DNA of 29,069 bases from a virus, in the IMG/VR virus record IMGVR_UViG_3300032313_000425, positions 1-29,069 of that record. One strand, 5' to 3'. The position numbers and the translations under genes were made by a program. Shown here piece by piece: positions 7,293 through 28,700 of the stretch (position 1 is the stretch's first letter; each line of letters opens with the position of its first letter). The notes below the pieces were generated by a model, which worked only from the letters and a program-made list of their open reading frames with translations, did no database searches and was not told the origin of the DNA.

Positions 7293-7298
7293 AGGATA

Positions 7299-7598: not shown

Positions 7599-7745
7599 AA
7601 TGAATTCCATCATAGAATCAAAGGTCATAGTTGACATTTCGTCAGTTATTGTTTTGTACAGATTTAAAGACATCTAGCACTTCTGTCTACGTGTGGTACT
7701 ACCATTCTCATTGCAATCAAGTCCATGGCATCCCCATATAATATG

Positions 7746-8173: not shown

Positions 8174-10907
8174 GCTGTCTATACTGGCCCGTTACGGTTG
8201 TTGTCCATAAATTACCATCTAGATTTTGTTCGATATTAACTACTTGAAAAAATCCATTTTGTTCATATCGTTCAGGTATTCCGATTACATTAAATATATC
8301 ACCACGACGAATTCCACTCTTTCCCAAAATTTTAAATGTATATTTTATTGGTAATAGTATTGAAGTTTTACCAACCGTAGCCCCAGCACCCATATATGAT
8401 TCAAATGCATTGTTTTTTAAAATATCAAATATTTGAGTATCTGTACAACAATATATTCTAAACCCATTTTTTAATTTTTGATATGTATTCGTTGAATCTT
8501 CAAATGCTGCCTGTGGATAGCCTATAGTCATTGTTGTTATTGCTGGATTTGCAATTATATCAATTTTATTTATATTATTACTTAATGTTGTTGTTTGTGT
8601 TTCTTCTACCGCATCTTCCAATCTTTTTATTTCAGCAAGTAATGCATCCCATGAAACTCCCTGAGCTGTACCAGAACCCTTTTCAGTTGCCGTACCACCT
8701 AATGTAGTAGGTATTACTTCGGTATATACATGTTCTTTTGTTGTTGGGTCTAAATATTCTGTGATTGATGCACCACCGGCTGTAGCTAGATATCTACCAA
8801 CTCTTCCTAAAAAAGTTTTATCTACTACTAATTTTTTTTGCCAATCGGCCTTTTTTTGTTTTGCCGTTTGTAATTCGTTTTTTAAATCAGCTATTGATGT
8901 ACCTCCCGTTTTACTCAATTTTGAATTATCTTCATATCCAATTCCGGTAAAAAATAAATCTTTATTATTTGTAAAAATACCACCCATATCTAATCCTTGT
9001 GAATTTGGATTAGCTATATAATTTTCTCTTTTTAAAATTATCTGATTAGTCATTTCAGATGGTATATCTATTTGTAAATTTGCTTCTAAAAAAGTAGATA
9101 ATTCGCCAGCGTGTCTAAATAATTGAATTTGTGATTTTGGAATTGGACAGTAACCACACCAGTTTTCATCTATGATTGCAATTTGAATATTTCCATTTTC
9201 ATCAGTTTGTTCGTTCAATTGAAAATTCCAAAATGAATTCACTGCATCGGACATTTCATTTAACATATCCAATAATACATCTTTCATTGATTTGTTTGCT
9301 GAATTTTTTATAGCTTTACAAAATACATCAAAATTAACATAAAGATTTTCAATATCTCCATAATATCCTTCTTTTTCAAAAAAACCCCCATATGTTTTAT
9401 AACTTGGAGTTGTTCCAGTTGGACTAGGACCCGGTAGAGGTTTATTTTGTACAAATGCAAATGCTCCAATACTTGCATCAAATTCACTATTTATTATTGA
9501 ATCGATAGGAGTTTCACTATCATTTAAATAATACGCAAAGAAATCAGGTATTTTTCCCGGTATTACTAATTTAGCTGGATTTGTTGAAAATATTTTTGGA
9601 AATGCTCCAATAAATGCACGTGGATGTATTCTTACTTTTACTTCTTTATCACCAACTTTATATGTAGTTAATCCATTGTTTGCATTTAAAATTCTAATTG
9701 CCAATCCAAAGTTTATGTATTTATAATCAGAACCTAATTTTTCTCTAGGAACAGACCAAGTACCAACTTTAAATTCTTTGGTTAATCCCAATTTCATACC
9801 AACACTTTCTAAACCACTAATAGATTTATAAGAATTTACTATTTCATTGATAGTGTAGTCAAATCCAATTAAATCAAAATATCCATATCCATCACTAACC
9901 CCAAGAGCAGCCTTATCAACAAATTTAGCAACTTCGGATGTCTGTCTTTCTGCTGGTAAGTTATTGAACATATATTTATATCTTCTTGCACTAGCTATTG
10001 CGTCTGTTGCTCCGGCTGCTGATATATCATTAACACCATATAATCTTATTGATTGTAATGGTTTTACTACTTTTTTATCTTTTCCCGTTGTTGTTACTAC
10101 CTTTAGTTCATTTACATTTTTTTGTTGTTGTAAAAATGTAGGTAATCCGGGCATACCTCTAAGTGAAACAGATACTATAAAATTTTCATTTTCAGATACT
10201 ACACTACCACCAACTATGAATGCAAAAAACGAATCATAATTTCCGTATGAGGAAACACGTTTTGCATGTAATACATCATAATTTAAATTTTCATCAGCAG
10301 CTTGCTTTACAATTGTTCTTGCATTTGTAGTATCTATTAATTGTCCTAATGCTTCAGCATCACCCCATCCATATTCTATTAATATACTAAAACCAGGCTC
10401 CATAAAATACCTTTGTACTTCTTCCAATTGTGGTAATGAAAAACATTTTATTACTAATGTTCCAACTCTTGATATTTGGTCCTTTCCTTCTTTTATTTCT
10501 AAACTAGTAACAACCGGAGATGGTCTTAATACCCAATCTTGAGTTTCCGTATTGTATGTATTAGTATTGGTATTATTTATTTGATATTTTATTGTTGGAA
10601 ATACCCATTTTTTATCAAAATCTTTACCCATCGGACCACTTCCGTTTACATTACCATAACTACCCGGTACAACAATTGAATTTTTTCCAGAAATTACAGT
10701 GTTATCAACAATACCCAATTCATCCGATAAAGTTGCAGATTGAAATATAAGTCCTTTCTCTGCTCCAGAAAAAATTCGTATCCAAGGAAATTTCCCAGAT
10801 AATGTTTTGTTTCTGTTTTTAAATAAATAACCTGTTCCTGACATTCCAGATACTATACTGTTACATACATTATCCGATATTCTAGAAAACTTTGGAAATG
10901 TTCCCAT
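8160..10907 (-). CDS. Probable baseplate hub protein (gp27 / late-control-D like), 915 aa
   Basis: The N-terminal third contains ISRVGTLVIKCFSLPQLEE, then a turn PGFSILIEYGWGD near residues 165-182, the type of region seen in hub proteins that bridge tail tube and spike. The last 60 residues (LPIKYTFKILGKSG, RRGDIFNVIGIPERY, GFFQVVNIEQNL, WTTTVTGQYR) look like the beta-barrel with which gpD/gp27-type proteins end. Between them lie about 500 residues of extra sequence, including a Lys/Glu coiled-coil stretch near 680-705. T4 gp27 has 391 residues, so this protein is more than twice as long. It follows the gp53/LysM gene with only 1 nt between, in the tail operon. A hub role is my best reading; another large baseplate structural protein is possible. 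No lysozyme domain was seen, unlike T4 gp5. Confidence 0.55.
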   Translation of the reverse strand: MGTFPKFSRISDNVCNSIVSGMSGTGYLFKNRNKTLSGKFPWIRIFSGAEKGLIFQSATLSDELGIVDNTVISGKNSIVVPGSYGNVNGSGPMGKDFDKKWVFPTIKYQINNTNTNTYNTETQDWVLRPSPVVTSLEIKEGKDQISRVGTLVIKCFSLPQLEEVQRYFMEPGFSILIEYGWGDAEALGQLIDTTNARTIVKQAADENLNYDVLHAKRVSSYGNYDSFFAFIVGGSVVSENENFIVSVSLRGMPGLPTFLQQQKNVNELKVVTTTGKDKKVVKPLQSIRLYGVNDISAAGATDAIASARRYKYMFNNLPAERQTSEVAKFVDKAALGVSDGYGYFDLIGFDYTINEIVNSYKSISGLESVGMKLGLTKEFKVGTWSVPREKLGSDYKYINFGLAIRILNANNGLTTYKVGDKEVKVRIHPRAFIGAFPKIFSTNPAKLVIPGKIPDFFAYYLNDSETPIDSIINSEFDASIGAFAFVQNKPLPGPSPTGTTPSYKTYGGFFEKEGYYGDIENLYVNFDVFCKAIKNSANKSMKDVLLDMLNEMSDAVNSFWNFQLNEQTDENGNIQIAIIDENWCGYCPIPKSQIQLFRHAGELSTFLEANLQIDIPSEMTNQIILKRENYIANPNSQGLDMGGIFTNNKDLFFTGIGYEDNSKLSKTGGTSIADLKNELQTAKQKKADWQKKLVVDKTFLGRVGRYLATAGGASITEYLDPTTKEHVYTEVIPTTLGGTATEKGSGTAQGVSWDALLAEIKRLEDAVEETQTTTLSNNINKIDIIANPAITTMTIGYPQAAFEDSTNTYQKLKNGFRIYCCTDTQIFDILKNNAFESYMGAGATVGKTSILLPIKYTFKILGKSGIRRGDIFNVIGIPERYEQNGFFQVVNIEQNLDGNLWTTTVTGQYRQHAEK

Positions 10908-10908
10908 C

Positions 10909-11193
10909 TTATCTCATTGTTTGATTTACCACATCCTGATAATTTACAGGAATTCTTAAAATTGTTCCATCTTTAAATCCAATTGGTGCTGTATGTATAT
11001 TATTTGCAGCTGCTATAACCCACCACAAATTTGGGTTTTGATAAAATTGTGTAGCTAATGTATCTAATCTATCTCCCGTTTCAGTTGCTATCGTTATATC
11101 CAAAGGATTTTGTGGAATAGTGCGCATTATAGTTGCTCTATATACTTCCTTACCATCTAATGTTTTTTTAATAGGATTATTATTATATCTCAT
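10909..11193 (-). CDS. Baseplate wedge protein with LysM domain (gp53-like), 94 aa
   Basis: Residues about 33-85 form a LysM-like fold: TETGDRLDTLATQFYQNPN, LWWVIAAANNI, then GTILRIP. LysM domains of this length with a WWxIAxANNI core occur in T4 gp53 and in small baseplate proteins of other contractile tails, where they contact the tube and wedge rather than peptidoglycan. There is no signal peptide. The protein is about half the length of T4 gp53, so it consists mainly of the LysM unit with a short N-terminal arm (MRYNNNPIKKTLDGKEVYR). It ends 1 nt before the hub gene and starts 39 nt after the 631-aa gene, so it is part of the tail operon. Confidence 0.82.
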   Translation of the reverse strand: MRYNNNPIKKTLDGKEVYRATIMRTIPQNPLDITIATETGDRLDTLATQFYQNPNLWWVIAAANNIHTAPIGFKDGTILRIPVNYQDVVNQTMR

Positions 11194-11232
11194 ATTTAAT
11201 AAGTATTTGGTTTAATTAAAATTCTTAACGTT

Positions 11233-13128
11233 TTATTTTCCTTGTTTCATCCATGATGGATTTTTTGGAGTTTCTACACTGGTTTTTGGAGGTGTACGGC
11301 GTACTCCATTTTCTATTATTGCTACAGTTTCATTATATGTTTTTATCCAAAAGTTTAATCTATCTAATTCCTCTGTCTCTGCCGGTGTCCATGGTTTTGC
11401 AAATAAACCCATAAAACTTGCTTCATGTTGTTTTTTTAAATTGGCAAGTTGTTTTTGTAATTCAGCTCTTTTATCATAAATAGCTTTATTAGTTTTATCT
11501 TTTTTTGCTTCTTCTTCTATATTACGTTTTTGATATGGTGTTGCAAATACATTCCCTTTTGATTCTGTATTTCCATATGTGTCTATTGCTAAAAAGTCTC
11601 TCATTTCATCTTCAGTTGCAAGCCTTAGAGATTTTCCTTTGAGTCCTCTTGTTTGTTTTATATACAACTCTTTAGTACCAAGTGCCTTTACTACTTGTTT
11701 TCCTTTTTCAGGTTTTTTTGTAGGGTCAGTGATTGCCGCATTTACCGCTAATGCCAGCTGAATATCATATGCAGTACTAGCAAATGGTTGTGCCACTGTT
11801 GCAGTACCAGTGTTTATTACACTTCTACCAAAATAAAGTAAATTCCTAACCCCCGTAAAAAGATTAGCCGCAAGTGTAGCTCCACTAGCTAGTTGAGCTA
11901 ACGCAGATACTTTTTGAAAAATATCTCCATTTACAAGGTTTTCTTTTACTTCCCAATTATAATTTTGTATCCAAGTTCTATTTTCGGTAATTTGTTCCTG
12001 CAAAAATATACCTTTATTTTGATGTTCATACACATACTCTCCTAAAAAGTTAAGCCCCTCTGCTTTGTTTTTAGCATCTCTTGAAAGATATCTATCGTAT
12101 GCAGTTCCAGATCTTCCCGCAGTTACATTAATTTCTTCAGCTTGTCTATCTAAATCAGCGTTTTGTGATGCAGCTTTTATATCACTTGTAGTATAATAAC
12201 GATTTCCATAATAATCATTAGAACCCAAAACATACCCATCACCTTTTTTCATTTGCATCGAATACAATTTTGGAGTGGTATTAAATTTATTTTTATATAA
12301 GCCGGTTCCTGTAAACCATTGTTTTTCCAAATTATCCAATCCAAAACTATTATATAAATTAGTAACTTTAAAAGTTGCTCCAAATACAGTTCTGTCTCCG
12401 TAGTTATTAAAAAGTGAAAAGCTATTCTCTTCTGCCCAATGATGCCACTGGTGAGATGTATGTGCAATTTTATATAAAGTACTTCCTTCAGAAAGCATAC
12501 CTTTTGTTAAATCATAGAAATTTCCAAATTTAACCTGTCCACCAAGTCCCAATGCCAATGAATATCCCCAACTATTAGGTACTGGCCCTGATTGTTGAGC
12601 TGGGTCATAACGATATCTGAGCGTTGAAAACCCCGCCTTAACACCTATCAAAGCCCTTCTACTATTATTTAGAACATTAAACGTTCTACCTGCAAACGCA
12701 ACAGTTGATGCACCTCCAGTTGCCGCTAATCCCAAACCTTGAACTATTCCATCCCCAATATTCCATACTAGCTTCGATTGCCAACCATATCCAAGAGTTG
12801 TATTTAAAGCTTCTTCTTTAGTTGTTCCATATTGGTAAGTGTGAGTTTTTCCAAGTATATCATCCACAAGAGTAGGAGGTGGTGTTGATGGATAAACTAT
12901 ATCATGTATAGGTACTTTCTCTTCATCAGATGGAGGTGGTTCTACTTTGGCCGCTTTAGTTACCTTACTTACTTCTTTTGTATTTACATTAGACACATTT
13001 TTAGTATTGGCTTTAAATCCCTGACTACCAAATGTATTAGTAGTTGGTTTTGAAATAACATTCTTTAAACTAAAGCCTCCAACGCTTCCTTTGTTACTTA
13101 AACTTAATGATAAATTCCCATCTGCCAT
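11233..13128 (-). CDS. Tail/baseplate structural protein of unknown function, 631 aa
   Basis: I do not recognise this family. Residues 1-75 are a Ser/Asn/Lys-rich disordered-looking arm ending in a Pro-rich stretch (PPPSDEEK, STPPPT). Residues about 110-160 hold Gly/Ala-rich segments (GDGIVQGLGLAATGGAST). Aromatic-rich blocks follow (TSHQWHHWAEENSFSLF, NNYGDRTVFGATFKVTN). A second Ala-rich helical region lies near 410-470, then a charged Lys/Glu helix near 540-580, and a Pro-rich tail ending PSWMKQGK. There is no signal peptide. It lies between the tail-tube-initiator-like gene and the gp53/LysM gene, with a 15-nt gap upstream, so a tail or baseplate role is likely from position. The hydrophobic stretches are Gly/Ala-rich and I do not call them membrane spans. 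Confidence 0.75.
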   Translation of the reverse strand: MADGNLSLSLSNKGSVGGFSLKNVISKPTTNTFGSQGFKANTKNVSNVNTKEVSKVTKAAKVEPPPSDEEKVPIHDIVYPSTPPPTLVDDILGKTHTYQYGTTKEEALNTTLGYGWQSKLVWNIGDGIVQGLGLAATGGASTVAFAGRTFNVLNNSRRALIGVKAGFSTLRYRYDPAQQSGPVPNSWGYSLALGLGGQVKFGNFYDLTKGMLSEGSTLYKIAHTSHQWHHWAEENSFSLFNNYGDRTVFGATFKVTNLYNSFGLDNLEKQWFTGTGLYKNKFNTTPKLYSMQMKKGDGYVLGSNDYYGNRYYTTSDIKAASQNADLDRQAEEINVTAGRSGTAYDRYLSRDAKNKAEGLNFLGEYVYEHQNKGIFLQEQITENRTWIQNYNWEVKENLVNGDIFQKVSALAQLASGATLAANLFTGVRNLLYFGRSVINTGTATVAQPFASTAYDIQLALAVNAAITDPTKKPEKGKQVVKALGTKELYIKQTRGLKGKSLRLATEDEMRDFLAIDTYGNTESKGNVFATPYQKRNIEEEAKKDKTNKAIYDKRAELQKQLANLKKQHEASFMGLFAKPWTPAETEELDRLNFWIKTYNETVAIIENGVRRTPPKTSVETPKNPSWMKQGK

Positions 13129-13143
13129 ATTACTATTTTATTA

Positions 13144-15090
13144 TTAAGGTGTAGGTGCGGTAGGTGTAATATAATCATACAACGCATTACCATACTCAAA
13201 TGTTGAATCATAAACTGTAGATTTACTTTCAATAAATTTAACAGTAATATCAACATCAACTATCATAGGTAATACAAAATTTTTACCTGTTAATGTTTCA
13301 TCCATAGCCATATTGTATCCGACCGCGCCACCTCCATTGCTAAGTGGGGCCGGCATGATTACGTTTGCAAATAACTTTCTGTTCATTCCAATTTCCCAAG
13401 GTGAATTTTCATCAACACTAAATGTCATATTTTCTATAAAACAACTTCGTTTTTCGTACATATTTCCTAATGTAAGAGCAATTATCGGAGGCGCCACTGC
13501 ATTAACCTCTCCTCTATATCCTTGTGGGTAAACAAGACCTGCCAATGCATTTAATCGTCTCCAAGCATTTATATGCTCAACTAAGTTCATTGAAAAAACT
13601 TTAAATTTAAATGATAAACTTCGTTCAACACCACCATATGTATATGAATTAAATGGGTTTCCTATAAACTTATTAGGCTCCCAACTTGGTGTAAATGTTT
13701 CTTGTAAATCAGTAACAGTACATCTAAATTGTAATGTCATTCCTTTAAATTCACTATAAAATTTAAGTCTTACTAAATCAAAATCATCATATGGAGTTTT
13801 ACCATCGCTTGATAATGCTGTTGTACCAGGGTACATAATATCAGGACTTAAATTGAATACATCTCCATTGGATGTCATTCCTCTTTTTATATATAATGAA
13901 TCTTTTTGTGTGGAATCATGAACATCTTGATATTTGGGTGTATCTTGTACAACATCTCTTAATGCCGCATCCATCAGTATACCCGGATTGTTTGGTAAGT
14001 CAACCAAATTTGTATCAGGATCTATATAAGCTAAACCTTCAGAAACCAATTTATTTAATATAGTTCTTCTATAATACGCCTCCAAATCTCTTTGGTCTGC
14101 TAAATAGTTAGGATTGATGGATTTTATTAAGGTTTGTTCGTATTTATTTTTAGACCACCATAATTTAGCTTGGTCTGGAATAGTTGGGTCTGTTCTTCTC
14201 CTACTTTCGGGTCCAAGTATCACATTTGCCATTTGCTTACTAGTAATTGCTCCTACTGCTTTACTAACTAATAAACGGGCTCCGGCTTTAAATAAATTAG
14301 ATACAATACCAGCACCTGTTGATATTAAAAAATCTTTACCTTGTGCTAATATATTTTTGTTGGGTTTTAATAAATTATTAACAAACCCAGGTACTTTATC
14401 TTTATTTTTTAAATCAATTATTTTCTTTCTTATATCAGATTCACGTACATAATCTCTTTTATTAGAATCATATCCTTTTCCAAATTCCTCAGCTACTTTA
14501 CTTGGAATCATTGGTCCTGGTAATATAGAACCTAATAATCTACCACCAACATCAGATATTGCATTCAATGCTATTGGTGTTATATCAGGTTTTGGTGGTA
14601 ATGATGCTTTTTTTCCAAATGTAAGGAAATTAGCCATAGCATCGCCAGCATATTTTCCAACTGCATCACCAATAACATCATCAAGACCTCCAGCTGCACC
14701 TTGTTCAGTTGCTCTTTTCATTACTAATAAAGTCTGTGTATTTTTATTTGTAATTCTAGTAAAATCTAAACCATATATTACAGGTCTTGCAAAGTTTTGA
14801 AATTGCTTTAAACCTAATTCTTCTTGTTCATTTAAAGTTTCTGAAAGTCTTATACTTCTAGTATTTCGTAGCCTATTCATATTTGTAAGAACATCAAATC
14901 CTGCTGCAATATTACCAAACAATCCTTGTCTTGGAGTTGTTCTATTTAATTGATTAATTGCATAACTATTTGATGTAATAGGTACAATTCTTTTACTATC
15001 TTGAGGAGCATATATTTCCTCTGCCGTTTTACCTGTATTTGGTCCAGATGTATTTTTCTTTTGTCTAAATAATTCTTCTAAACTTGGCAT
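13144..15090 (-). CDS. Probable baseplate / tail-tube initiator protein, 648 aa
   Basis: Residues 1-430 contain a helical, Lys/Arg-rich N-terminal part and an Ala/Gly segment (LISTGAGIVSNLFKAGARLL). Residues about 440-640 form a beta-rich domain: KGMTLQFRCTVTDLQETFTP, then YGGVERSLSFKFKVFSMN, then NALAGLVYPQGYRG, PPIIALTLGNMYEKRSC and MTFSVDENSPWEIG. Such domains with a strand-rich tube-like fold and a PWEI-type end occur in proteins that cap or initiate the tail tube (gp48/gp54 role in T4). The gene begins 3 nt after the tape-measure stop, the place where tube-initiator and hub genes usually lie. The assignment to gp48 or gp54 is not secure, because the large N-terminal part has no T4 counterpart I can name. 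Confidence 0.45.
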   Translation of the reverse strand: MPSLEELFRQKKNTSGPNTGKTAEEIYAPQDSKRIVPITSNSYAINQLNRTTPRQGLFGNIAAGFDVLTNMNRLRNTRSIRLSETLNEQEELGLKQFQNFARPVIYGLDFTRITNKNTQTLLVMKRATEQGAAGGLDDVIGDAVGKYAGDAMANFLTFGKKASLPPKPDITPIALNAISDVGGRLLGSILPGPMIPSKVAEEFGKGYDSNKRDYVRESDIRKKIIDLKNKDKVPGFVNNLLKPNKNILAQGKDFLISTGAGIVSNLFKAGARLLVSKAVGAITSKQMANVILGPESRRRTDPTIPDQAKLWWSKNKYEQTLIKSINPNYLADQRDLEAYYRRTILNKLVSEGLAYIDPDTNLVDLPNNPGILMDAALRDVVQDTPKYQDVHDSTQKDSLYIKRGMTSNGDVFNLSPDIMYPGTTALSSDGKTPYDDFDLVRLKFYSEFKGMTLQFRCTVTDLQETFTPSWEPNKFIGNPFNSYTYGGVERSLSFKFKVFSMNLVEHINAWRRLNALAGLVYPQGYRGEVNAVAPPIIALTLGNMYEKRSCFIENMTFSVDENSPWEIGMNRKLFANVIMPAPLSNGGGAVGYNMAMDETLTGKNFVLPMIVDVDITVKFIESKSTVYDSTFEYGNALYDYITPTAPTP

Positions 15091-15093
15091 ATC

Positions 15094-17442
15094 TTATTTT
15101 CTTTGTCCGTATGAAAAATTGTTCCTACTGCTTCTTTCGTTTGCCAAAGCAATACCACTTGTAACTTTTTGACCATCCAAATAAACATCATTGGATTTAT
15201 TAGAAAATTCTTTCCTCAATGCTTTCATTTCATTTACTAAAATATCAATTGCTTTAGATTGAAGCGCACCTCCAGCAATTGGAGTAACGGCTCCCATTTT
15301 TCCAATATTAGATGCTGCATTTAAATTTTCAATTGCATTTGGTGCTGCTACTAAATCATCATTTGGCGATAATTCCAATAAACCACCTTCTTTTGTTGAT
15401 ATTCGAGTTCTACCATTAGCAGGTGACATTACATCACCAACACTTTTTGCTTTACCTATGGATGATATTAATGCTGCTACAACACCAGCTGCCAACGCAA
15501 CACCAATAAAAGGCATTGCTCCATATGCACTCCAAACTTTAGCAATTGCTGCCATTTTAGCTGCTATGGCAACTTTCATAGTCATTAACCACATTGCTGT
15601 CAATCCTGCTATAATTGCAGGAAATACTCCAGGTATATAATTTAATACTTTAAATACAAATCCAAATGCTTCGGCTATTATAGTAACAATAGGTGCCAAT
15701 CCTTCCATTAGTGGTAGTAATGCAGTACCAAGAGATGCAACTATTCCTTTAAATGAGTTTTCCATTTGAGTAACTTTGTCAGCTATTTCTTGCTGAGCTG
15801 CTAACTCTTTGGTTTTATTCATTAATTGGTCTTGTGTTAAAGTGGTTATATCTAACCCTTTATCTATTGCTTGTTGTGCTTTTATAGCGTCATCATCGGT
15901 AAGACCTGATAATAATTTTTGTATTTGTAATTGCTTAGTAAGTTGTTCAACTGTCATACCTGCCGCATCTGCTAATACCTTTTTAGTAAACATATCCTGG
16001 TCAGCAAATCTACCACTTCTTTCAACTTGTTTTAATATTTCTTTCTGAGCATCTACGTTCTTACCAGCATATGCTAATGCTCTTGCTTGCGATAAATTAA
16101 ATTGACCACCAACGAATGTTGCAGCTACTAATTCCTTCTCAATACCATTTTCAAAATCTAAAAGGTCTTCGGTTGTTTTTAATACATCTTTTAATGTAGT
16201 ACCCAATCGTCTAGCTTCAATAGCTTGCTTAGCTATTAAATTAATATCTCCTTTAAAGTAAGTGTATGTATCTTCAGCTGATTCAGCTATATCCGCAAAT
16301 ACTTTTGAAGGGGCTACTCCAGACAAATTGGCCATTTGAGCTATTTGCTGAGAAATTCCCTCTGCTGTTTCTGCACTATATCCGGCCATACTCTGCATTA
16401 TCATATTTACTTTGGCCGCATCTTTTTGTGCAATCCCAAAGTTTTTATTTAATACAGTCATTGATGATACCAACGCTTCAGATAATCTAGCATTATCAGC
16501 AAATTCTCCTTTTAATGCACCAATTGTATCATATAAATCATCAGCCTCTAATCCCAATTGAGAAAAATTATTTCTAATCTTTTTAACTTGATTATCTAAA
16601 TCTTTTGATTGAGATGCAGTTATTCCAGTTTCTTCTCTAAACTTTTTAGATGCTGCCGATAATTCTGTAAATGAATCTACAGCTGCTGCTAATAATAATC
16701 CTATCAATACAAGTGGTAACATTCCAGACATTAACCCCTTACCTAAATCTTTTGCTAAATCAACACCATCTTGAAGAAACCCTGGAAGTTTTTCATATAA
16801 TCTATTACCTTCTTCTTTTATTTGATTTAATCGTTCTTCTTGTTGAATTAAATTTTCATTTAATTGAAATAAATCTTTTAATTTCTTTTGCTCTTCGGGT
16901 CCTAAACTTGCAATACTTTCTTCAAATTTAAGTCTTCTATTAGCTGCTTCATTTTGACCTAAAATTTCATCTTTTACTTTAGCTGCTTCTTCCGCTTGAG
17001 TTGTAATAGATGTATATAGGTTTGAATATAGTTCTAATTTTTTTTGATTAATTTTTAACTCATCATCGCTTAATCCAAATTGTTGTTCTTTTAAATCTAA
17101 AATATCTTTAGCAAGAGAAGCAAATGCAGAACCTCCTACTTTATTTGTAGTTATTAATTTTCTAGCATTAATGTTTAATTTTGTAAAAGAAGTTCCTAAA
17201 GAATCTTGTAAATCTTCATATTCTTCAGCTAATGTATTTTGTTTCTCTAATGGTTCTGCTTGTTTTTGTAAAATCTTTAGCTTTTCCTTCTCTTTCTCAA
17301 TTCTCTTTTCAAGTCTTTTACGTTCTTCCGCACCAACTATCGCAGCCTTTTTGTTTTGCTCCTCAATACGCTGATTAGTTTCCTCAATTTCTCTAAGAAG
17401 TTCTAACCTAAGCTCTTCTGCACTATCTGATAATCTATCCAT
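15094..17442 (-). CDS. Tail tape measure protein, 782 aa
   Basis: Residues 1-90 are a long charged coiled coil (EETNQRIEEQNKKAA, ERKRLEKRIEKEKEKLK). Further helical heptads run to about 230. A hydrophobic segment, MSGMLPLVLIGLLLAAAV, follows near 240. The middle (270-530) is helical with the Ala/Gly/Gln-rich composition of tape measures (QSMAGYSAETAEGISQQIAQM). A second hydrophobic region lies near 570-660 (ALLPLMEGLAPIVTIIAEAF, IGVALAAGVVAALI). The protein sets tail length and is threaded inside the tube, and its hydrophobic parts probably enter the host membrane. At about 0.15 nm per residue the tail would be near 115 nm. The start overlaps the stop of the 89-codon gene as TAATG. The length fits a T4-like contractile tail (T4 gp29 has 590 residues). 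Confidence 0.85.
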   Translation of the reverse strand: MDRLSDSAEELRLELLREIEETNQRIEEQNKKAAIVGAEERKRLEKRIEKEKEKLKILQKQAEPLEKQNTLAEEYEDLQDSLGTSFTKLNINARKLITTNKVGGSAFASLAKDILDLKEQQFGLSDDELKINQKKLELYSNLYTSITTQAEEAAKVKDEILGQNEAANRRLKFEESIASLGPEEQKKLKDLFQLNENLIQQEERLNQIKEEGNRLYEKLPGFLQDGVDLAKDLGKGLMSGMLPLVLIGLLLAAAVDSFTELSAASKKFREETGITASQSKDLDNQVKKIRNNFSQLGLEADDLYDTIGALKGEFADNARLSEALVSSMTVLNKNFGIAQKDAAKVNMIMQSMAGYSAETAEGISQQIAQMANLSGVAPSKVFADIAESAEDTYTYFKGDINLIAKQAIEARRLGTTLKDVLKTTEDLLDFENGIEKELVAATFVGGQFNLSQARALAYAGKNVDAQKEILKQVERSGRFADQDMFTKKVLADAAGMTVEQLTKQLQIQKLLSGLTDDDAIKAQQAIDKGLDITTLTQDQLMNKTKELAAQQEIADKVTQMENSFKGIVASLGTALLPLMEGLAPIVTIIAEAFGFVFKVLNYIPGVFPAIIAGLTAMWLMTMKVAIAAKMAAIAKVWSAYGAMPFIGVALAAGVVAALISSIGKAKSVGDVMSPANGRTRISTKEGGLLELSPNDDLVAAPNAIENLNAASNIGKMGAVTPIAGGALQSKAIDILVNEMKALRKEFSNKSNDVYLDGQKVTSGIALANERSSRNNFSYGQRK

Positions 17443-17687
17443 TAATTATAATCTTTTGGTATCAATCCCCAGTCCTGAAACATTTTGAACATTTCAGGTT
17501 TATCATCTTTTAATTTATCGATTTCAGGCTTGTATTTGTAGTTTAATTTATCCACATCAGCCTTTAATTTTTGTAAGACAGGGTCGTTATCAATCATTTT
17601 CTGAAGTTTTTGTGGTGTTCTCTTTTTAGTGAACAATCCAAAAAATTCTTTTAATTTAGATTTTTTTATTTTATAATGTGATACCAT
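17442..17687 (-). CDS. Small basic protein of unknown function, coupled to the tape measure
   Basis: From the ATG at 17687 the protein has 81 residues, starting MVSHYKIKKSKLKEFFGLF. An in-frame TTG at 17711 would add eight residues, but it sits only 2 nt below a TATTTATA box. The ATG has a purine-rich AAAGAAG just before it and a spacing to the box (26 nt) identical to that of other units. The N-terminal third is very basic; LQKMIDNDPVLQKLKADVDKL looks like an amphipathic helix, and the C-terminus ends GLIPKDYN. No signal peptide or membrane span is seen. The stop overlaps the tape-measure ATG (TAATG), so it may help tape-measure folding or assembly. That role is inferred from coupling alone. 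Confidence 0.72.
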   Translation of the reverse strand: MVSHYKIKKSKLKEFFGLFTKKRTPQKLQKMIDNDPVLQKLKADVDKLNYKYKPEIDKLKDDKPEMFKMFQDWGLIPKDYN

Positions 17688-17713
17688 CTTCTTTTGTTTA
17701 TAGTTATTCAATC

Positions 17714-17721
17714 TATAAATA
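17714..17721 (-). promoter_or_regulatory. Candidate late promoter box ATATTTATAG upstream of the tape-measure operon
   Basis: TATTTATA on the coding strand lies 26 nt before the ATG at 17687 and directly downstream of the terminator at 17736-17776. This is where a new promoter would be needed if transcription stops there. Confidence 0.5.
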
Positions 17722-17735
17722 TCTAATAAAATAAA

Positions 17736-17776
17736 AAAGTTAGGAATAAGAGTGGTTATCTCTTAATCCTAACTTT
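17736..17776 (-). terminator. Intrinsic terminator at the end of the 67-aa gene
   Basis: A 10-bp stem pairs aaagttagga (17736-17745) with tcctaacttt (17767-17776). After one mismatch a further 6 bp pair taagag with ctctta around a 7-nt loop. On the minus strand it is followed by TTTATTTTATTAG. The hairpin contains the last codons and the stop of the 67-aa gene. It separates the chaperone-like genes from the tape-measure operon. Confidence 0.75.
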
Positions 17777-17959
17777 AGATGCGTTTGCAGATTGAGCTTT
17801 TTTAGTATCTTCGTTTTCTTTTTTCTTTGATTCTACTAATTTATTATAGTAAAATCTCCTAAGATGGGTTGGCATTTTGTACAATTCCATCATCGAAAAA
17901 CCATTACTATATTCCACCATTTCAAATATTTGAGTGTGGAGTAATAGACTATGATTCAT
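17756..17959 (-). CDS. 67-aa protein overlapping the baseplate gene; possible frameshift extension
   Basis: The ATG at 17959 lies upstream of the preceding gene's TAG (17951-17949), so the frames overlap by 11 nt. Residues 1-45 read MNHSLLLHTQIFEMVEYSNG, then FSMMELYKMPTHLRRFYYNK, a helical segment of the kind found in the second frame of tail-assembly chaperones encoded just before tape measures. The C-terminus is basic and disordered-looking. The frame is open upstream of the ATG across a T7 run (17975-17969), so it could also be made as a C-terminal extension of the 253-aa protein by +1 or -2 slippage, giving about 317 aa. The 3' end is embedded in a terminator hairpin. Independent translation and frameshift fusion are both possible. 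The family is not one I can name with certainty. Confidence 0.7.
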   Translation of the reverse strand: MNHSLLLHTQIFEMVEYSNGFSMMELYKMPTHLRRFYYNKLVESKKKENEDTKKAQSANASKVRIKR

Positions 17960-18710
17960 CGCCAGGCCAAAAAAACCCTACGCCCATTGGAATAGGCGCC
18001 ACCTCACTTTCTCCATCTTCATGTACATATGTAAATGTCATGTTCATATCTGGAGAGATTTTTTTAATATGTTCTCTGAATGCTCTGCTATCTTTTGCTA
18101 AAAATGAGTTATTAATGAATTTGTTGATATGACCTAAATCTGAATTTCCATCCACACTTTTAATCATATACCTTAATCTAGTTGTAATTTCATACGAACC
18201 ATCTTTATTCATTTTTTCCAATGCTGCTATATCCTTATCAATTAACTTCTCATCACCATGCGTAAGTAACTTAAATGTTAATTTATTACCACTTGGTGTT
18301 GTAAATTCAAATTCATTTTGATTAGCAAAATTAGAATAATCAACATCTTTTGTTTTAATTTGAGCCAAATCTACTGTTGTTTCGATAGATTTTCCTGCTT
18401 TTGATGAATAAAATGAAATATTATAGTTAGGACCATATCCTAATAGTCTTGTTGCTAATACAATTGCATTTTTATCACCTAATAAAATATCATCGATATT
18501 AACCGCATCAACAATAATAGATTCAAATAACTTATCTAATACAATTCCTTTTTTAATAAGATTTGTAGAAGAAAGTATATCTTCCTCTTTTGCAGTCATA
18601 TATTTTATTGTAATTTGTCCAGAAGATAGAGGATGCTCTTTTGGATATAATTTACCCTTTGATGGTAAATCCAACACTTCTGTTGGGAAATCGAATTGTC
18701 TTTGATTCAT
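17949..18710 (-). CDS. T4-type baseplate/tail-assembly protein (gp26-like), 253 aa
   Basis: The protein begins MNQRQFDFPTEVLDLPSKG and continues LYPKEHPLSSGQITIKYMTAKEEDIL, the typical start of the T4 baseplate protein family that includes gp26. A helical middle follows (IDDILLGDKNAIVLATRLLGYG), then a zinc-finger-like position without the Cys pairs seen in some relatives (YNISFYSSKAGKSIETTVDL). The C-terminal helices are KLIDKDIAALEKMNK and RYMIKSVDGNSDL. In T4, gp26 is needed for baseplate hub assembly. In many phages the protein in this place, between tube and tape measure, acts as a tape-measure chaperone. The sequence ends GVGFFWPGDES, and the F-F-W codons contain a run of seven T residues where slippage into the 67-aa frame could occur. 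A TATTTATA box lies 26 nt before the ATG. Confidence 0.75.
   Translation of the reverse strand: MNQRQFDFPTEVLDLPSKGKLYPKEHPLSSGQITIKYMTAKEEDILSSTNLIKKGIVLDKLFESIIVDAVNIDDILLGDKNAIVLATRLLGYGPNYNISFYSSKAGKSIETTVDLAQIKTKDVDYSNFANQNEFEFTTPSGNKLTFKLLTHGDEKLIDKDIAALEKMNKDGSYEITTRLRYMIKSVDGNSDLGHINKFINNSFLAKDSRAFREHIKKISPDMNMTFTYVHEDGESEVAPIPMGVGFFWPGDES
17969..17975 (-). other. Candidate programmed frameshift site (T7 run) in the tail-assembly gene
   Basis: The zero frame reads GGG TTT TTT TGG CCT, then TAG six codons after the run's last codon. A +1 or -2 shift on the run continues GGC CTG GCG ATG AAT CAT into the 67-aa frame. A Phe tRNA on TTT can re-pair with TTT one base along, as +1 slippage requires. 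Position and gene order match known tail-chaperone frameshifts, most of which are -1 while a few are +1 or -2. Confidence 0.4.
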
Positions 18711-18821: not shown

Positions 18822-19322
18822 TTAGTATTCAAGAATTGCGTAATCGTATGTTAATGTTAAATCAATAGTAACTGGTTCATTTGTGTTAGAAAAGTCCAAT
18901 TCACCAAAAGCAGCTTTAGTAATAAATGCTCCTTTTAAAGTCCATTGTTCAACCTTATCACCAACAGGACCTAACATATAAAAAGTAATATCTTTTTTAT
19001 AGAATTCAGCGTAGCCATCTCTACCAGTAATTGATTCATGTGATAATCTCACCCACTCCATTACTAATTGAGCTGCCGAAGGAACTACTGGGTCATACAA
19101 AGTGATATTTAAGTCCTGCCACTCACCTTTACCCTTTAATTTTCTATAAACGTTGATATGGTCTATTTTTACAGTTTCAAAATTTATTTCTGGTCTGTTT
19201 GCTGTTTTAACCATATAAGCTGGGATACCCACACTTGTCATTTCCATGTAGTAGCGGTTTTTCATCTTCGGTTCGAAGGTATCCGCTATCATTTGGGTAT
19301 AATTTAATATATTATCTGCCAT
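18822..19322 (-). CDS. Tail tube protein (gp19-like), 166 aa
   Basis: Length and sequence fit the T4 gp19 family. It starts MADNILNYTQMIADTFEPKM, then NRYYMEMTSVGIPAYMVKTANRP with the K-x-x-x-RP turn. FETVKIDHINVYRKLKGKGEWQDLNITLYDP is the tube-specific beta region, and VTIDLTLTYDYAILEY is the final strand. Subunits stack as hexamer rings to form the inner tube through which DNA passes. The gene lies directly downstream of the sheath and is flanked by a TATTTATT box upstream and a strong terminator downstream, so it can be a monocistronic, highly expressed unit. The ribosome binding site is a weak GGAAC 5 nt before the ATG. Confidence 0.93.
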   Translation of the reverse strand: MADNILNYTQMIADTFEPKMKNRYYMEMTSVGIPAYMVKTANRPEINFETVKIDHINVYRKLKGKGEWQDLNITLYDPVVPSAAQLVMEWVRLSHESITGRDGYAEFYKKDITFYMLGPVGDKVEQWTLKGAFITKAAFGELDFSNTNEPVTIDLTLTYDYAILEY

Positions 19323-19375: not shown

Positions 19376-21724
19376 TTATGCTGAGAAAGATGCTCCAGTT
19401 GGTAAGATGTTGAAATCAATTACTATGAATTCAGCTGTCTTAGTTGGTTGAAGGAATATTGCTCCAGCTAATATGTTTCTATCAATTACATCCGGTGTGT
19501 TATTAGATTCATCCATTACAACATTGAATGCGTACAAACCTTGTCTTTGTTGGATTGATTCTAAATAAGGAGTCACAGTGTTAATGAATCTTGCTCTAGT
19601 TTCAGTTGTATTTTGTTCAAATACTAAGTAACGAGATGTAGATGCTATGAACTTCTTCATAGTGATTAACAATCTTCTAACATTGATTCTATCTAAAGCA
19701 GATGCTCTATCTTGCAATGTCTTTTGTCCGAATGCTACAATACCTTGTCCAGGGAAAGTTGCGATAGGGTTTACTTTATTTTCATAAAGGATATCTCTTT
19801 CAGCATGTGTTAATCTATTTAATACACTAACTGCTCCAGTGATACCACCTCTATTCAAACCAGCCGGTGCGAACCACTCTGCTGATAATCTATCACTACT
19901 AGCGAATACCGCTGGTAACAATGTAGAAGGAGGTACAGTTGTAAGTTTGTTTGTATTACTATCTATAGTCTTAACCCAAGGATAGTAACAAGCTGCGTAG
20001 TTTGAATCCACTGCTTGTGCTTGTTCAGTTGCTGTTGTGATTGAAGAATCATAATCAGTAAAGTCAGCAATATAGAAACAATCTTGTCTATCTTCAACCA
20101 TATCAATCATTTTAGTAACGATTGCAGGGTGTAATTCTCTATTAATACCAGGTATTGATACTAAGTTAATATCATATTCATCAGGATTAGATAAAGCGTT
20201 GATTGCTTTTGAATATCCTAAAGAACCAGATGCTGTTGATTTAGAACAGTTTAAACCTTGCGTATTAGCTGCTCCCCACTCATCATCACCAGCTAATGCT
20301 ATCTTCACAGTTGGAGATACACCATCAAAACCACCTTGGAAACCTAAAATAAATTGTCTCTTAACCATATCAGCTCCAGCTGAACCAGTCATAACATAAC
20401 TCAATTGAGAATCAAATGAGAATGCTGTATTTGCTCCCACAACTGCTCCAACAGGAATTGGATTTAAATAAATTGCGTTATCACCAGCTACTCCAGCAGT
20501 ATCAAAATCCATACCACTATAATATACAGTAGAGGTTGTTGTGTTATTTGCTGAACCAGTTTGGTAAACTACCGTTGGTACATATGATGCTTCAGTTGAG
20601 TTATTAGTTGCAATTGGGTTTATATAAGCTGCGTGTCCAAATGGTGCTGCTGATATTGGGAATGAACCTGGTTCAGATACTTCAACTCTAATGTGAATTG
20701 ATTTATTTGAATAATCACCATTTTCAGTAATTTTACCATTATCATCAATTGTAAACTCTCTGTCACCAATCACTCTAGCAATATATCTAGGAGATGATGG
20801 GTCTAAGTTTACATTACCAAATGATTCAATTATACTAGCTCTCTTATCACTATCACCATAAGTTCTAAGTGTTACAGAGAATGTTGAGTAATCAGTTGAA
20901 CCATCTTCACCAGCTGCCTTAACATTAGAAATACCAATTTTGTATTTAGTATTATATGGAGTACCATGTCCTAATGTATGGAAACGGAAAAGTTGATATC
21001 TATCACCACTAATTGTTTGAGATACAACCCAAGGAGTATATGCTTCTTGAACATCATATTCAAAGTTTTGGTCAGGTAAATAAACTGCACTTATTACAGC
21101 TTTGTTACCAATTGCATCAGATGAACCAGTAAATGAAGTTGCTATATTTTCGAAGAATGTGTATGCGTATGCTGCTTTAGCGCCGAATGGAGATTCACCA
21201 AATACATCAGCAACATCATTAGTTGCACTTGCTATAATTGATGATGAAATCGAAGTCCATGCATTTGTTGCTGATAGAGTACTACCTACTGTAAATGCTC
21301 CAGCAATTGTTTGGCTACTTGTTACAAAAGTAGTTGCAGGTACAAATCCAACATCTTTAAGTCCTAATGTAGTTGAATGTAAAGTAGAAATTAATTTAGG
21401 AGTACTTCCATTAGTAGAACCTGATACTAAAATACCTAAAGGTTTTACTTGTCTATATCCATTAATTCCACCAACTCTTACAATAGTTGCTGAACCAGCT
21501 TCTCTTAAATAGTTTTGTACTGCATATTCAGTATAATATGTTCCATCAGGTGTTCCAAAAATTTGTTGGAATTCTGATTGACTTCTTACAATAGTTGGAA
21601 TGAATGCAGGTCCTTGTTTAAAAGGTCCTACGAATGCTGCTCCAATTTGTCCTACTCCTTGCGCTAAGAAGGATAGGTCATTTTCTCTTGTAAATACACC
21701 AGGTGATACGATTCTTTCTGCCAT
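19376..21724 (-). CDS. Tail sheath protein (gp18-like), 782 aa
   Basis: The N-terminus MAERIVSPGVFTRENDLSF and FVGPFKQGPAFIPTIVRSQSEFQQIFG are characteristic of contractile sheath proteins. The C-terminal domain is typical as well: NVRRLLITMKKFIASTSRYLVFEQN, then TRARFINTVTPYLESIQQRQGLYAFNVVMDESNN, then IFLQPTKTAEFIVIDFNI, which forms the subunit-linking and tube-contacting part. The middle (about 100-450) contains Ser/Thr/Asn-rich beta domains that decorate the surface. T4 gp18 has 659 residues, so this one carries roughly 120 extra, probably in the outer domains. Sheath contraction drives the tube through the host envelope. It has a good ribosome binding site (AGAGG-like GGAGA at 21735-21731) and a 60-nt leader with a hairpin. 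Confidence 0.95.
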   Translation of the reverse strand: MAERIVSPGVFTRENDLSFLAQGVGQIGAAFVGPFKQGPAFIPTIVRSQSEFQQIFGTPDGTYYTEYAVQNYLREAGSATIVRVGGINGYRQVKPLGILVSGSTNGSTPKLISTLHSTTLGLKDVGFVPATTFVTSSQTIAGAFTVGSTLSATNAWTSISSSIIASATNDVADVFGESPFGAKAAYAYTFFENIATSFTGSSDAIGNKAVISAVYLPDQNFEYDVQEAYTPWVVSQTISGDRYQLFRFHTLGHGTPYNTKYKIGISNVKAAGEDGSTDYSTFSVTLRTYGDSDKRASIIESFGNVNLDPSSPRYIARVIGDREFTIDDNGKITENGDYSNKSIHIRVEVSEPGSFPISAAPFGHAAYINPIATNNSTEASYVPTVVYQTGSANNTTTSTVYYSGMDFDTAGVAGDNAIYLNPIPVGAVVGANTAFSFDSQLSYVMTGSAGADMVKRQFILGFQGGFDGVSPTVKIALAGDDEWGAANTQGLNCSKSTASGSLGYSKAINALSNPDEYDINLVSIPGINRELHPAIVTKMIDMVEDRQDCFYIADFTDYDSSITTATEQAQAVDSNYAACYYPWVKTIDSNTNKLTTVPPSTLLPAVFASSDRLSAEWFAPAGLNRGGITGAVSVLNRLTHAERDILYENKVNPIATFPGQGIVAFGQKTLQDRASALDRINVRRLLITMKKFIASTSRYLVFEQNTTETRARFINTVTPYLESIQQRQGLYAFNVVMDESNNTPDVIDRNILAGAIFLQPTKTAEFIVIDFNILPTGASFSA

Positions 21725-22742: not shown

Positions 22743-25700
22743 TTATCCTTTAATATTAAGTATTAAATTATTTAAAATTTCTTTCAATTCTTTAATTTCA
22801 TCCGATTGTTTTTCTATTATTTTATTTTGGTCTTTAACAGCTTCAATTAATAAACCTGTTAAATTACCATAAGCAACACCATATTCATCATTAACATCAC
22901 AATAGGTGACTGCTTCAGGTAGTACTTCTTCAACTTCTTGTGCAATTACTCCTATTTGCCTTTTTTTAGTTTTATCATCAATTCTATTATAAAATACACC
23001 TCTCATTTTAAGAACTCTATCCAATCCAGAATCAATAGTTACTATATTTTCTTTAGCACGTCTATCGGAATATGCCACAATATTTTCGGTAGCGTATATA
23101 CCTCTACTAACATACATACCATAAGATGGGGATGTTGCTGAGGTATTTACTCCGACACAATTGTATGGGAAATAATGGTAGAACATCCATCTACCAGATT
23201 GATAATAAATACCACCATTACCACCACCATCAAACATCAACACAGGTGTATTACCTACGTCAATTAATATACCACCATATCCGTTTCTACTACCATCAAT
23301 TCTCCATTGTCCATATGTAGAGTTGTTTGGATAAATGTGCGCTGAGTTGATTCCAGAATATATTCCGTGATATCCTTCCAATCTCTGCCATGTATGCCAG
23401 AATGAATAGTTTGAAGGTCCACTTAATTGAATAAGAATACCACTCATATCATAATCGGAGTAAACCCTAACACCCTCATAAGAAGGACCGTTTGCTCCCA
23501 ATTTAAGACCTGTATGATATGCAATTCTTAAATCCGGATAAGGATATCCCCATCCACCACCTTCTTGGAATATATTATAAGCGTTTGTACCTTGTCCAGA
23601 GTTACCACCAACACCAATGAAATCAATACGAGCTGCTCTCATATAGTTGTTGAATTCACCAGAACTCATTTGAGAATATCCAGTAGGGTCAGTATAATAT
23701 GCCGTATTGTTTTGGTCATAGAATATAGGTGCTCTAGAACTACCATTTGAGTATGAGTTACCACCTCTATCAATATAGAAGTCAGTAGTACCCCAACTTT
23801 GGTTTCTATGGCCGTGGTCGTGGTTGATTCTAAAATAAGAATCATCTGCATAACCATATCCACAACTCCATGTTGAACTATTAAATCCACTTGAGAATAG
23901 AATAGAAGGTCTATCACCACCAGGTCCACCATTAACTCTAAATTCACCAACAATACCCCAAGAGTTATCACCCTGGTTGTTTGCTGCCATAAATGCTCTA
24001 CTATTAGGACCTGTTCCTATTTTTACAACTTCTAATACTAATCCAGTTTGTGAAAAATAACTAAATCCATTAGGGTCACAATATCTAGATGTATCGTTTG
24101 AATCGTAATAAATTCCAGCATATAAAGCCCCACCACTACCATCGTTACGGTCATGCATTGCAATAGTTGTCCAACCACTTGCACTTGGCCAAGAATTTCT
24201 AAATCTTAAGTTACTTATTGGGCCACCAACCATTTGCCAACCATACATACTATTGTATGCATTAGTGTAGTGAGAAGTTTGAACACCTACCCAGTGTGAA
24301 GTACCTGATGGTTGGTTTGCTGGATTTGACCATGTATCAATAAATCCACTACCCCATGTCATTACTTCATTTAAGTCTCTCGTACCCCAACCCATAGTAC
24401 CTACCCAATAGTTAGAATCTCCAGTTATATCCGGTCTCTTCCAATTTGTTTTTCCAGTTAGACCAGTTTGAGCCTTACCTCTAAGTGTTAATCCTTGCCA
24501 GTTGGTTTCACTATTAAAGTCACCATAGTATCCAGTATCGTGGTCATAGAAGATTGGTGCCATCATTGAAGTTCTTGCCCAAATTCTAGAAGAAAGTGCT
24601 GCAAAGGTTGTACCATAATTCATTATTAGTGCACCATGGTCATTCAAATATGATGCCTGTCCACCTGCGTTTGGATGTGACCAAGCTATACCATATAAGT
24701 TACCCGGATTAGAACCATCAATTGCGGGTTTGTATGCATCGCCCATTGAGAATACACCCTGATATCTAGTCGATGTGTAAACACCCACAATAGATTGTCC
24801 GTAGTTGTAATCTAAATAAAGGTTATTATTCGTATTAATTCTAACCGGTGAATTAAAGTTTGCAATACCTCCACCATTTTGGAAACCTATTCTTGATGCC
24901 CACGTATTATTATTTTCCAATGACCAGAATCCACCACGTTCACCGGCAATATAACTACCATCAACTAATGTATATCCTTGTCCACTTACATCTAAAATTA
25001 CAAATTCAGCACCAGCTCCAAATGTTAATCCCCATCTTCTAGTAAATCCATAAGATGCTAAATCAGCCATCCAGCTACCACTATTGTACCAAACTTGTGC
25101 ACCACCAATGGTCATATTTGATGCGTTGATACCACTATTTGTAAATGTTGCGGGAACTTGACCAGTACTACTTTGTACTCTAAATCCAGTTCCAGTATAA
25201 AATCTCATTTCCTCCCAATCATCATCAGCATTCCATATAAAGTGATTTGTATCTCCATTGGTTCTTAGATATAATCTTTGGTCATTCAAACCAAATGAAC
25301 CAGTCATATTAATACCACCACTAATAGGAATTGCATAAGAACCATAGTTTCCAGCATGCAACATTGCTCTCCATCCACTTTGCCAGTTTGTAGTACCATA
25401 CCATCCGTATCTATGAAGAATTTCACCCTGATAGAAGTAATATTGGTCATGTTGATGTCCACCTAATCCATAGTATTCAATTAATGTACCATATGAAGAT
25501 GGTGCTCCACCTTGAGTGTAACTATCCCACATTCTAAATGACATTGATTGCGTACCACTACCATTACCATGTGCTCCCCAACTAAAATCCCATTCTCTAT
25601 AAGGGAATGTTACTTGGTTTACTACTATTCTATTACTATTCCATAAATAAGTTGTATCATTTGAAATATAATATAATGGTGAGCGGAATGTACCATTTTG

Positions 25701-28700
25701 AGAATCCGGAGTTATATAAACATCCTGATTTGACATTCTAATTGTTGCAAAGTTAGAACTACCTTCAGCTCCGGTATTTAAATCAATTACTCTAGAACTT
25801 CTTGCTGATACAAGCATTTTACCAGAACCATCATGATTCCAGCTAAATCCATCAGCTGCGTAAGCTGCGTATGAACCAAACGATTGAGATGACCCACCTA
25901 AACCAAAGAATCCTTTATGAGAACCATTTAATTGGAAATCAACTAAACCATATGCAGTTGCATCATTTAAATTAAGTTTTAAATTTTGACTTGTATTATA
26001 ATTGTTTCTTATATTAACAGAACCAACTGTTGTTAATTCGTTTAAAACAGATGTACCATCTCCATTAAATCTATATCCAGTATCTGCGGAATCGTAGAAT
26101 ATTGGTGACCTCATATCCGCTGATACAAATAATGTACCACCATTGCTTAATGACATCAATTGTGTTGATGCTGAACTATTATACCAATCATAGCCTCCCG
26201 TACCAAAGTTTCTCCAACGAGATATTCCAGCGTCTTGTATGAATCCAGTATAGTTTGAGGCATCTCCAATATTCAAACCAGTTCCCCAACCTACACCACC
26301 GGCACCGCCTGCCCAAATACTTACTCTACCAGAAGAAATTGCCGAAGTACCACTTAATACAGTTTGTCCACCATATACATAAAAAGGAACTGATGTTGAA
26401 CCAGGAGAACCAACGGATACACCTGCTGTAAAGTTATTATATCCATTAAGGTATAACATGTTAGTATTCCAACCGCTATATCTCCCTATTGCTTGCCATC
26501 CAGTTAATTGTACAGTCGTATCACCACCACCTGCTACGTTTAATGTAGGTCCAGCAAAATATCCATTACCACTTTCATTTACTGAAAATAATTCGTTTGA
26601 TGCCTTTCTTGCATTATTACCTACTATGAATTTTCTATCAGTTTCATTATTATTAGAATCTATACTAACAATAACATTACCAGCTCCTGCTAAATAAAGT
26701 CCGTTACCAGATGAGTTATCTTGAACTACAACTACATCATATGTGTTATCTCTATATATACCAGCAGCCGTATCACTTAGGTAAAATGCCCCACCATTAC
26801 CACCAGAGTTTGCAATTACCTGATTGAATACAACGTTATCAGTTGTACGAACATTTTGGTTCATATTAGCCGCAAAAGAGTATGATGTTGTATCCATTAT
26901 ACGTTTCCATGCTCCCCATGTAGTAGAACTACCATATCTCAACCACATATTACCATTATCGGTAAATCCTAATTCGTTTGCACCACCACCAGACCAATCA
27001 GTAGATGAACCATATTTTCTGAAATACATTACACCATTGTAAGTACCTCCATCACTTAATCCGTTTGTTGAGTTTTGTTTGAAATCAAATCTAACTCCCT
27101 GATTTGCGTTTTGAGTTTGTGGTGTTGTTACTGATGCTCTTGTATCCTGAACGTTTAAGTACAATGCTGTTGTTGCTGTTGTTGCATTACCTATTAAGGT
27201 TGAAGTTACCTGATTAAATGTTACGTTATCGGTTGTTCTAACGTTTTGGTTCATTAAATGAACTTCCGTAGCCCCCTGCCCAGTATCTACCGTAGCAAAA
27301 GTTACTGCATCAGTTGTACGAACATTTTGATTCATTGCGTACAATTCGTTAGCTCCCTGCCCAGTATCAACCGTAGCAAAAGTTACTGCATCAGTTGTAC
27401 GAATATTCTGATTCATTAAATAAACTTCTGTTGCACCAATACCAGTATCTATTGTACCACTAAGAACTACATTACCAGCAACATACAATCCATCTTCTGC
27501 ATACCATCTATCAGCTGCTTCATCCCAATAAAATGCTTTTGTTGCCGATGAACCTCTCTTAACTTCAATACCAGCGTTTTGAGTTGGTGCACCAGATGCA
27601 AAATCTGCATTTAGTGTAATAATATTATCACCTATGTTAAGAGTCGTTGTATTAATATATGTTGTTGTACCACTTACAGTAAGGTCACCACTAATTGTAG
27701 CGTTACCAGTTACTGCTAATGTAGTTCCATCAAAAGTTAAATTACTTTCAACCGTTCCATTTGGTGCAGTTCCGTTTAGAGTAATTACACCATTATTTGT
27801 TGTACCTGTTAATGATAATAATCCAGATGAACCAGATGTACCACGTGTTCCAGATGTGCCACTTGTACCAGACGTTCCTGATGTGCCACTTGTACCACTT
27901 GTGCCAGATGTTCCTGATGTGCCAGATGTTCCTGATGTGCCACTTGTACCAGACGAACCACTAACTCCAGAAGTTCCTGATGTGCCACTTGTACCAGACG
28001 AACCACTAACTCCAGAAGTTCCTGATGTTCCTGATGTTCCTGATGTTCCTCTTGTGCCAGAAGTTCCTGATGTGCCAGAAGTTCCTGATGAACCACTAAC
28101 ACCAGAAGTTCCTGATGTACCACTGGTGCCAGATGTTCCCGATGAACCACTAATACCAGAAGTTCCTGATGTGCCTGAAGTTCCATTTGAACCTTGTGCT
28201 CCAGATGTACCAGAAGTTCCTGATGTGCCAGATGTTCCGGATGAACCTTGTGCTCCAGAAGTTCCCGAAGTACCAGATGTTCCTGATGTACCCCTTGTGC
28301 CAGACGTTCCTGAAGTACCACTTGTACCACTTGTGCCAGACGTTCCAGCTGAGCCAGATGAACCTTGTGCTCCAGAAGTTCCTGATGTGCCACTTGTACC
28401 AGATGAACCACTAACTCCAGAAGTTCCTGATGTGCCAGACGAACCAGACGTACCAGAAGTTCCCGATGTGCCTCTTGTGCCAGAAGTTCCCGATGTACCA
28501 CTTGTACCAGATGTACCACTACTACCAGAAGCACCACCACCACCAGTTAAACCACTTGTGCCAGATGTTCCCGATGTACCAGAAGTTCCCGATGAACCTC
28601 CCGTACCACTTGCTCCACTACTACCAGATGTTCCTGATGTGCCAGAAGTTCCCGATGTACCTCCACTACCAGATGAACCACTACCACCACCTGCTCCAGT

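Follow-up and report, generated by a model that had tools for sequence, protein, structure and literature searches.

A conserved poly-T run and a probable +1 ribosomal frameshift in a putative gp26/gp51-family tail assembly chaperone gene of a phage with a contractile tail

The window, that is, the whole stretch of 29,069 nt (29 kb) that was analysed, is a fragment of a phage with a contractile tail. The minus strand carries, in this order, the genes for the tail sheath and tail tube, a gp26-like gene, a 67-aa frame, a small gene, and the tape measure gene (Table 1). The gene order agrees with the placement given in an earlier, sequence-only reading of the same DNA, in which the pair of frames lay just upstream of the tape measure gene with the small gene between them. 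The tube protein was 48% identical to the protein at the same position in Flavobacterium phage immuto. The tape measure gene was assigned from its product, which over 478 columns is 25% identical (E 7e-19) to the protein annotated as the tape measure in immuto. Family scans of the small gene gave no convincing match. The chaperone-type gene likewise sits between the tail tube and tape measure genes in immuto, SP-15, and LIS04. Elsewhere on the minus strand, a phage-encoded tmRNA gene was detected at 7350-7735 (ARAGORN, tag DEMSTMTFDSMMEFIGASEYAYAA; Rfam RF00023, 89.1 bits, full length), and a 2034-aa ORF at 22743-28847 begins with a very long Ser-Gly-Thr (SGTSG) repeat and has a C-terminal SDRRAKENI motif resembling a tail-spike intramolecular chaperone domain.

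Table 1. Positions of the tail genes and of the elements of the predicted frameshift in the window
Feature	Position	Strand	Evidence
gp26-like gene = TAC-N (short tail assembly chaperone), 253 aa, zero frame	17949..18710	-	
T7 slippery run, zero frame TTT TTT T(GG)	17969..17975	-	sequence
+1-frame stop TAG, directly 5' of T7; upstream limit of frame change	17978..17980	-	
Zero-frame stop TAG; downstream limit of frame change	17949..17951	-	sequence
+1-frame segment encoding TAC-C, FFGLAMNHS...KVRIKR then stop	17756..17977	-	pN/pS, hhalign
TAC-NC, predicted frameshift product, 317 aa	17756..18710	-	translation with one +1 step
ATG from which a 67-aa ORF could be annotated; confined to the window's subclade and not required	17957..17959	-	
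Tail tube protein gene, upstream neighbour	18822..19322	-	PF06841; phrog_4542 E 1.1e-30
Tail sheath gene	19376..21724	-	PF04984 + PF17482
Small gene, 89 aa from TTG, between TAC-C and tape measure gene	17442..17711	-	ORF list
Tape measure protein gene, 782 aa	15094..17442	-	likeness to immuto tape measure protein

The 3' end of the gp26-like ORF reads GTA GGG TTT TTT TGG CCT GGC GAT GAA TCA TAG. The 67-aa frame, with its ATG at 17959..17957 and its stop at 17756, overlaps this ORF by 11 nt and lies in the +1 (equivalent to -2) frame. The T-run, the two frames, their overlap, and the 317-aa joint product had been described exactly in the sequence-only reading, as the sequence and its translation confirmed. 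Because a +1-frame stop is located directly 5' of the T-run, a frame change is confined to the interval from that TAG (17980..17978) to 17949.

TAC-N matched PF12322 (T4_baseplate) with 29.6 bits (cut-off 24.5) and phrog_150 with E 1.2e-9. By itself, its match to phrog_150 stopped at profile position 150; the +1 fusion spanned positions 17-281 of 282, and T4 gp51 positions 13-280. The hhalign comparison of TAC-N with T4 gp26 (E 4.9e-9) placed the C-terminal Phe-Phe in register. T4 gp26 ends in EFFELL with no extension, and gp51 is a separate full-length protein. Frameshifting is reportedly conserved in several T4-like groups, T4 being said to use genes 26 and 51. By hhalign, TAC-C in the +1 frame was homologous (E 1.1e-7) to the domain that T4-like relatives carry in -1, and direct hhalign of the gp51 C-terminus against the +1 C-domain aligned the expected region without reaching significance. 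An AlphaFold2 model was built for TAC-N using the standard code (pLDDT 90). Among 990 chains compared with VIA-align, the HK97 tail assembly chaperone 2ob9 ranked first, weakly (Z 4.4, 91 residues), and a Foldseek search of the model against the PDB gave no match at E<0.001. Since the fusion matches the gp26/gp51 family over its full length, as T4 gp51 does, and the genes follow the order sheath, tube, pair, and tape measure, the pair was assigned as a putative tail assembly chaperone.

The motif TTTTTTTGG occurs once in the window, compared with 1.53 occurrences expected in shuffled sequences; thus, the T-run by itself is unremarkable, and its conservation is the evidence. Scans of IMG/VR with both proteins retrieved 92 loci having both parts, 55 of them distinct. 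One of these (L053) was left out because an internal deletion joins its frames: at 4976-5016, a clean deletion of about 175 nt puts a truncated TAC-N and TAC-C in one frame, and the locus is either a deletion variant or an assembly chimera. In all 54 remaining distinct relatives, TTTTTTTGG, preceded by G or C, was kept in phase with the second frame in +1, although these relatives share kinship, so that such counts carry no exact probability. The T7 columns were invariant in 28 representatives. TTC made up 16.5% of the Phe codons outside the T-run in these genes and was absent from the two T7 codons of the 54 relatives. The conservation of the T-run in close relatives is not due to chance. The programmed frameshift suggested earlier for the two frames is therefore supported by an unbroken T-run and a constant second frame across the 54 junctions.

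The immuto protein, which is 49% identical, opens a larger clade. A scan with it yielded at least 600 matching stretches and, among the matches listed, 61 distinct junctions, all of them +1. Among these listed junctions, the sites were TTTTTTTGG (29), TTTCTTTGG (28), TTTCTATGG (3), and TTTCTTTAC (1), and all 61 fitted the pattern TTT[CT]T[TA]T, that is, TTTTTTT, TTTCTTT, or TTTCTAT. Comparison of the T-run and overlap across relatives, and a search for loss of the run, had been proposed earlier as checks. The two frames were never separated in the 54 junctions of the window's clade or in the 61 listed junctions of the immuto clade; the run was invariant in the former, and its only listed variants in the latter, TTTCTTT and TTTCTAT, still allow a +1 slip. 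No -1 position of the downstream domain was found in any of these 54 + 61 distinct relatives (the 61 among the matches listed). The domain was also found in +1 in the distant phages Mel-JY01, LR756508 (an uncultured phage of 484 kb), RM378, SP-15, LIS04, and SagM-GXN1. A common NCC CGA occurs in the overlap, just downstream, in SagM-GXN1, SP-15, and LIS04 (L099, L101, and L103), and it may be their real +1 site (CC C re-pairing) instead of the T-run. S-RIM8, phiM9, Aeromonas 65.2, OLIVR6, Atu_ph07, PA5oct, and RAS14 carry the domain in -1, with sites of the TTTTTTC or TTTTTTG type. In the tree of directions, +1 and -1 phages each clustered, and the best tree has two changes for +1; a single origin of the +1 direction is possible. 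In the immuto genome (L096, 4741-4964), the annotation of TAC-C is limited to a hypothetical protein of 36 aa that begins at an internal ATG, leaving most of the domain unannotated.

The second frame can be reached by slippage of +1 or -2, both of which had been allowed in the sequence-only reading, and T7 permits both, so that T7 alone does not decide the direction. A programmed -2 frameshift at the T-run, known for phage Mu (PMC5009743), would let tRNA-Phe re-pair two bases back and would add one Phe (FFFGL instead of FFGL). The re-pairings between the two limiting stops were listed for each of 81 distinct junctions. Re-pairing without mismatch was found at 77 of the 81 junctions for -2 and at every one of them for +1; the four exceptions for -2 are the three TTTCTATGG sites (L122, L133, and L144), where tRNA-Phe moving from UUU to UUC is the only good re-pairing, and SagM-GXN1, and +1 works at all four. 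In addition, TTTCTTTGG offers re-pairing from CUU to UUU and resembles the +1 site CUU U of prfB. Since +1 fits all 81 junctions and -2 is lacking at four, the +1 option is retained with considerable confidence, and a -2 slip appears improbable.

Homopolymer runs can cause slippage of RNA polymerase, seven residues being a short run for it. Loss of one U (or addition of two) in transcripts of T7, followed by normal translation, would yield the fusion, and loss of one U gives exactly FFGL; slippage of this type was reviewed in PMC5009743. About half of the listed immuto-clade sites are TTTCTTT or TTTCTAT, however, and 32 of the 61 junctions among the matches listed have the same frames without any run of more than three T at the site, which makes transcriptional slippage very unlikely as the common mechanism.

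An ordinary overlap, in which the 67-aa protein is made separately from the ATG at 17959 by coupled re-initiation, was the alternative given earlier. That ATG, overlapping the stop by 11 nt, is present in the window and in near-identical relatives (11 of the 54 distinct close relatives), but it is missing from the other 43, where the codon is AAG, CCG, AGG, ACC, ATT, CTG, or another, followed by the invariant Asn-His-Ser of the conserved flanking peptide. The overlap also leaves the conservation of T7 unexplained, and as the sole explanation it is rejected as very unlikely; a 67-aa protein made separately from the ATG is conceivable as an additional product in the window's own subclade. In most relatives, the +1-frame stop precedes T7 by 2 nt, and the interval from this stop to a Met located 31-37 nt past the zero-frame stop is free of ATG, GTG, and TTG. 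Likewise, 41 of the 61 immuto-clade junctions among the matches listed lack any start codon within 45 nt of the stop. From the zero-frame stop to the conserved Met (M14), pN/pS in 28 representatives was 0.32 when read in +1, compared with 5.3 for the zero frame and 1.3 for -1; after M14, it was 0.22 in +1. In the overlap from T7 to the stop, the constrained frame was +1 as well (0.35 vs 1.5). Of the three frames, only +1 shows protein-like evolution in the stretch from the zero-frame stop to the first conserved Met. Because this stretch is start-less and constrained, the +1 frame would be translated from at or near T7 and entered from the upstream gene. In the window (17948-17956) and its relatives, AAT CAT AGT after the slip site is nearly invariant, wobble positions included, even where the zero-frame stop sits 6 nt further upstream; the TAG stop explains part of this conservation. 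A start at the conserved Met, which is invariant in the window's clade, would give a protein of about 54 aa and no peptides from NHSLLLHTQIFEM. The evolution of the preceding codons as a +1-frame protein and the absence of the Met in immuto, Mel-JY01, and LR756508 speak strongly against it. Finally, a sequencing or assembly error, with an indel in a single intact gene at an error-prone homopolymer, is hardly conceivable, because isolated phages and 54 + 61 distinct junctions, drawn from many independent metagenomes, show the same arrangement.

The two frames thus very likely represent one tail assembly chaperone gene expressed as the short TAC-N and, via a +1 frameshift, the long TAC-NC. Judging from the sequence comparisons, ribosomes on the gp26-like gene very probably slip one base forward occasionally at the conserved T7. 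Most ribosomes would continue in the zero frame to the TAG at 17949 and release TAC-N. In a minority, at TTT TTT T, the P-site tRNA-Phe would re-pair from UUU to the overlapping UUU, and these ribosomes would then read GGC CTG GCG and onwards in +1 to 17756, producing TAC-NC. By analogy with lambda G/GT, TAC-N would coat the product of the tape measure gene just downstream, and tail tube subunits, whose gene is just upstream, may be recruited by the additional C-terminal domain.

Codon use and RNA folds were searched for a clear frameshift stimulator, and none was found. A hungry-codon model was rejected since the A-site TGG is not rare (12.7 per 1000 vs 5.6 for GGC in the window's phage). As a downstream RNA stimulator, the consensus fold was an invariant 5-bp pairing about 100 nt apart, which shows no covariation and is explicable by coding. 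For a 6-bp hairpin located 5' of the site, 90% of cells are paired, but covariation is marginal (23 of 500 shuffles were as high), and the hairpin is not claimed.

Most long-tailed phages use frameshifting in their tail chaperone genes, the shift being -1, -2, or +1 (PMC5009743). The sequence-only reading held that such a frameshift was not commonly described for T4-like phages; this proved incorrect, as it had already been described by Vladimirov, Gautam and Davidson (2022, Virology 566:9), who identified the chaperones of T4-like phages, as far as their work is cited in PMC10885494 and PMC12846349. The latter refers to it on poly-T signals for -1 shifts in the TAC-N genes of T4-like phages, and in some T4-like phages a separate fused copy replaces frameshifting (PMC10885494). 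The T4-like gp26/gp51 chaperones share with the window PF12322/phrog_150, the C-terminal domain, a position near the tape measure gene in several groups, and the location of the slip, at the same Phe-Phe pair close to where TAC-N ends. They differ in that the domain is in -1 on TTTTTTC/TTTTTTG-type sites in the relatives checked and T4 has separate genes, whereas the window has +1. In lambda G/GT, too, a single gene situated between those for the tube and tape measure proteins gives a short and a long form, diverging near its 3' end; however, lambda uses -1 (PMC5009743), and the likeness drawn here is one of arrangement. In Pseudomonas phage Adele and other Vandenendeviridae (PMC12846349), a conserved poly-T (GTTTTT) ends TAC-N and the downstream frame is start-less, a comparative argument of the same type, but the frame is -1 and the phage families are different. 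The chaperone of the haloarchaeal virus HSTV-2 has a +1 frameshift (very likely, PMC5009743) in a myovirus tail gene pair; it is an archaeal virus, likened here by direction. The +1 site of prfB (RF2), CUU UGA, has the same CUU U re-pairing as TTT CTT TGG of the immuto clade; unlike prfB, which differs in function, the window and immuto-clade sites have no A-site stop or identified Shine-Dalgarno-like stimulator.

Within the gp26/gp51 family, a large group of phages (Flavobacterium-type and others), most of them uncultured, probably uses +1 throughout, and compared with the -1 relatives, the direction would have switched while the Phe-Phe slip site was kept. The literature search, which covered work other than Vladimirov et al. 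2022 itself, found no report of a +1 frameshift in this family. What is new here is the +1 direction in the gp26/gp51 family, the strict conservation of T7 in the window's clade, and the apparent switch relative to the -1 relatives; the kind of event is ordinary.

This chaperone gene is present in many environmental phages, as the matches to the immuto protein indicate, and in relatives with annotation it appears split or is annotated incompletely. The family allows +1 and -1 slippage to be compared in nature at a single homologous poly-T site, where the variants TTTTTTT, TTTCTTT, and TTTCTAT serve as ready-made mutants, and a cultivated model, Flavobacterium phage immuto, is available.
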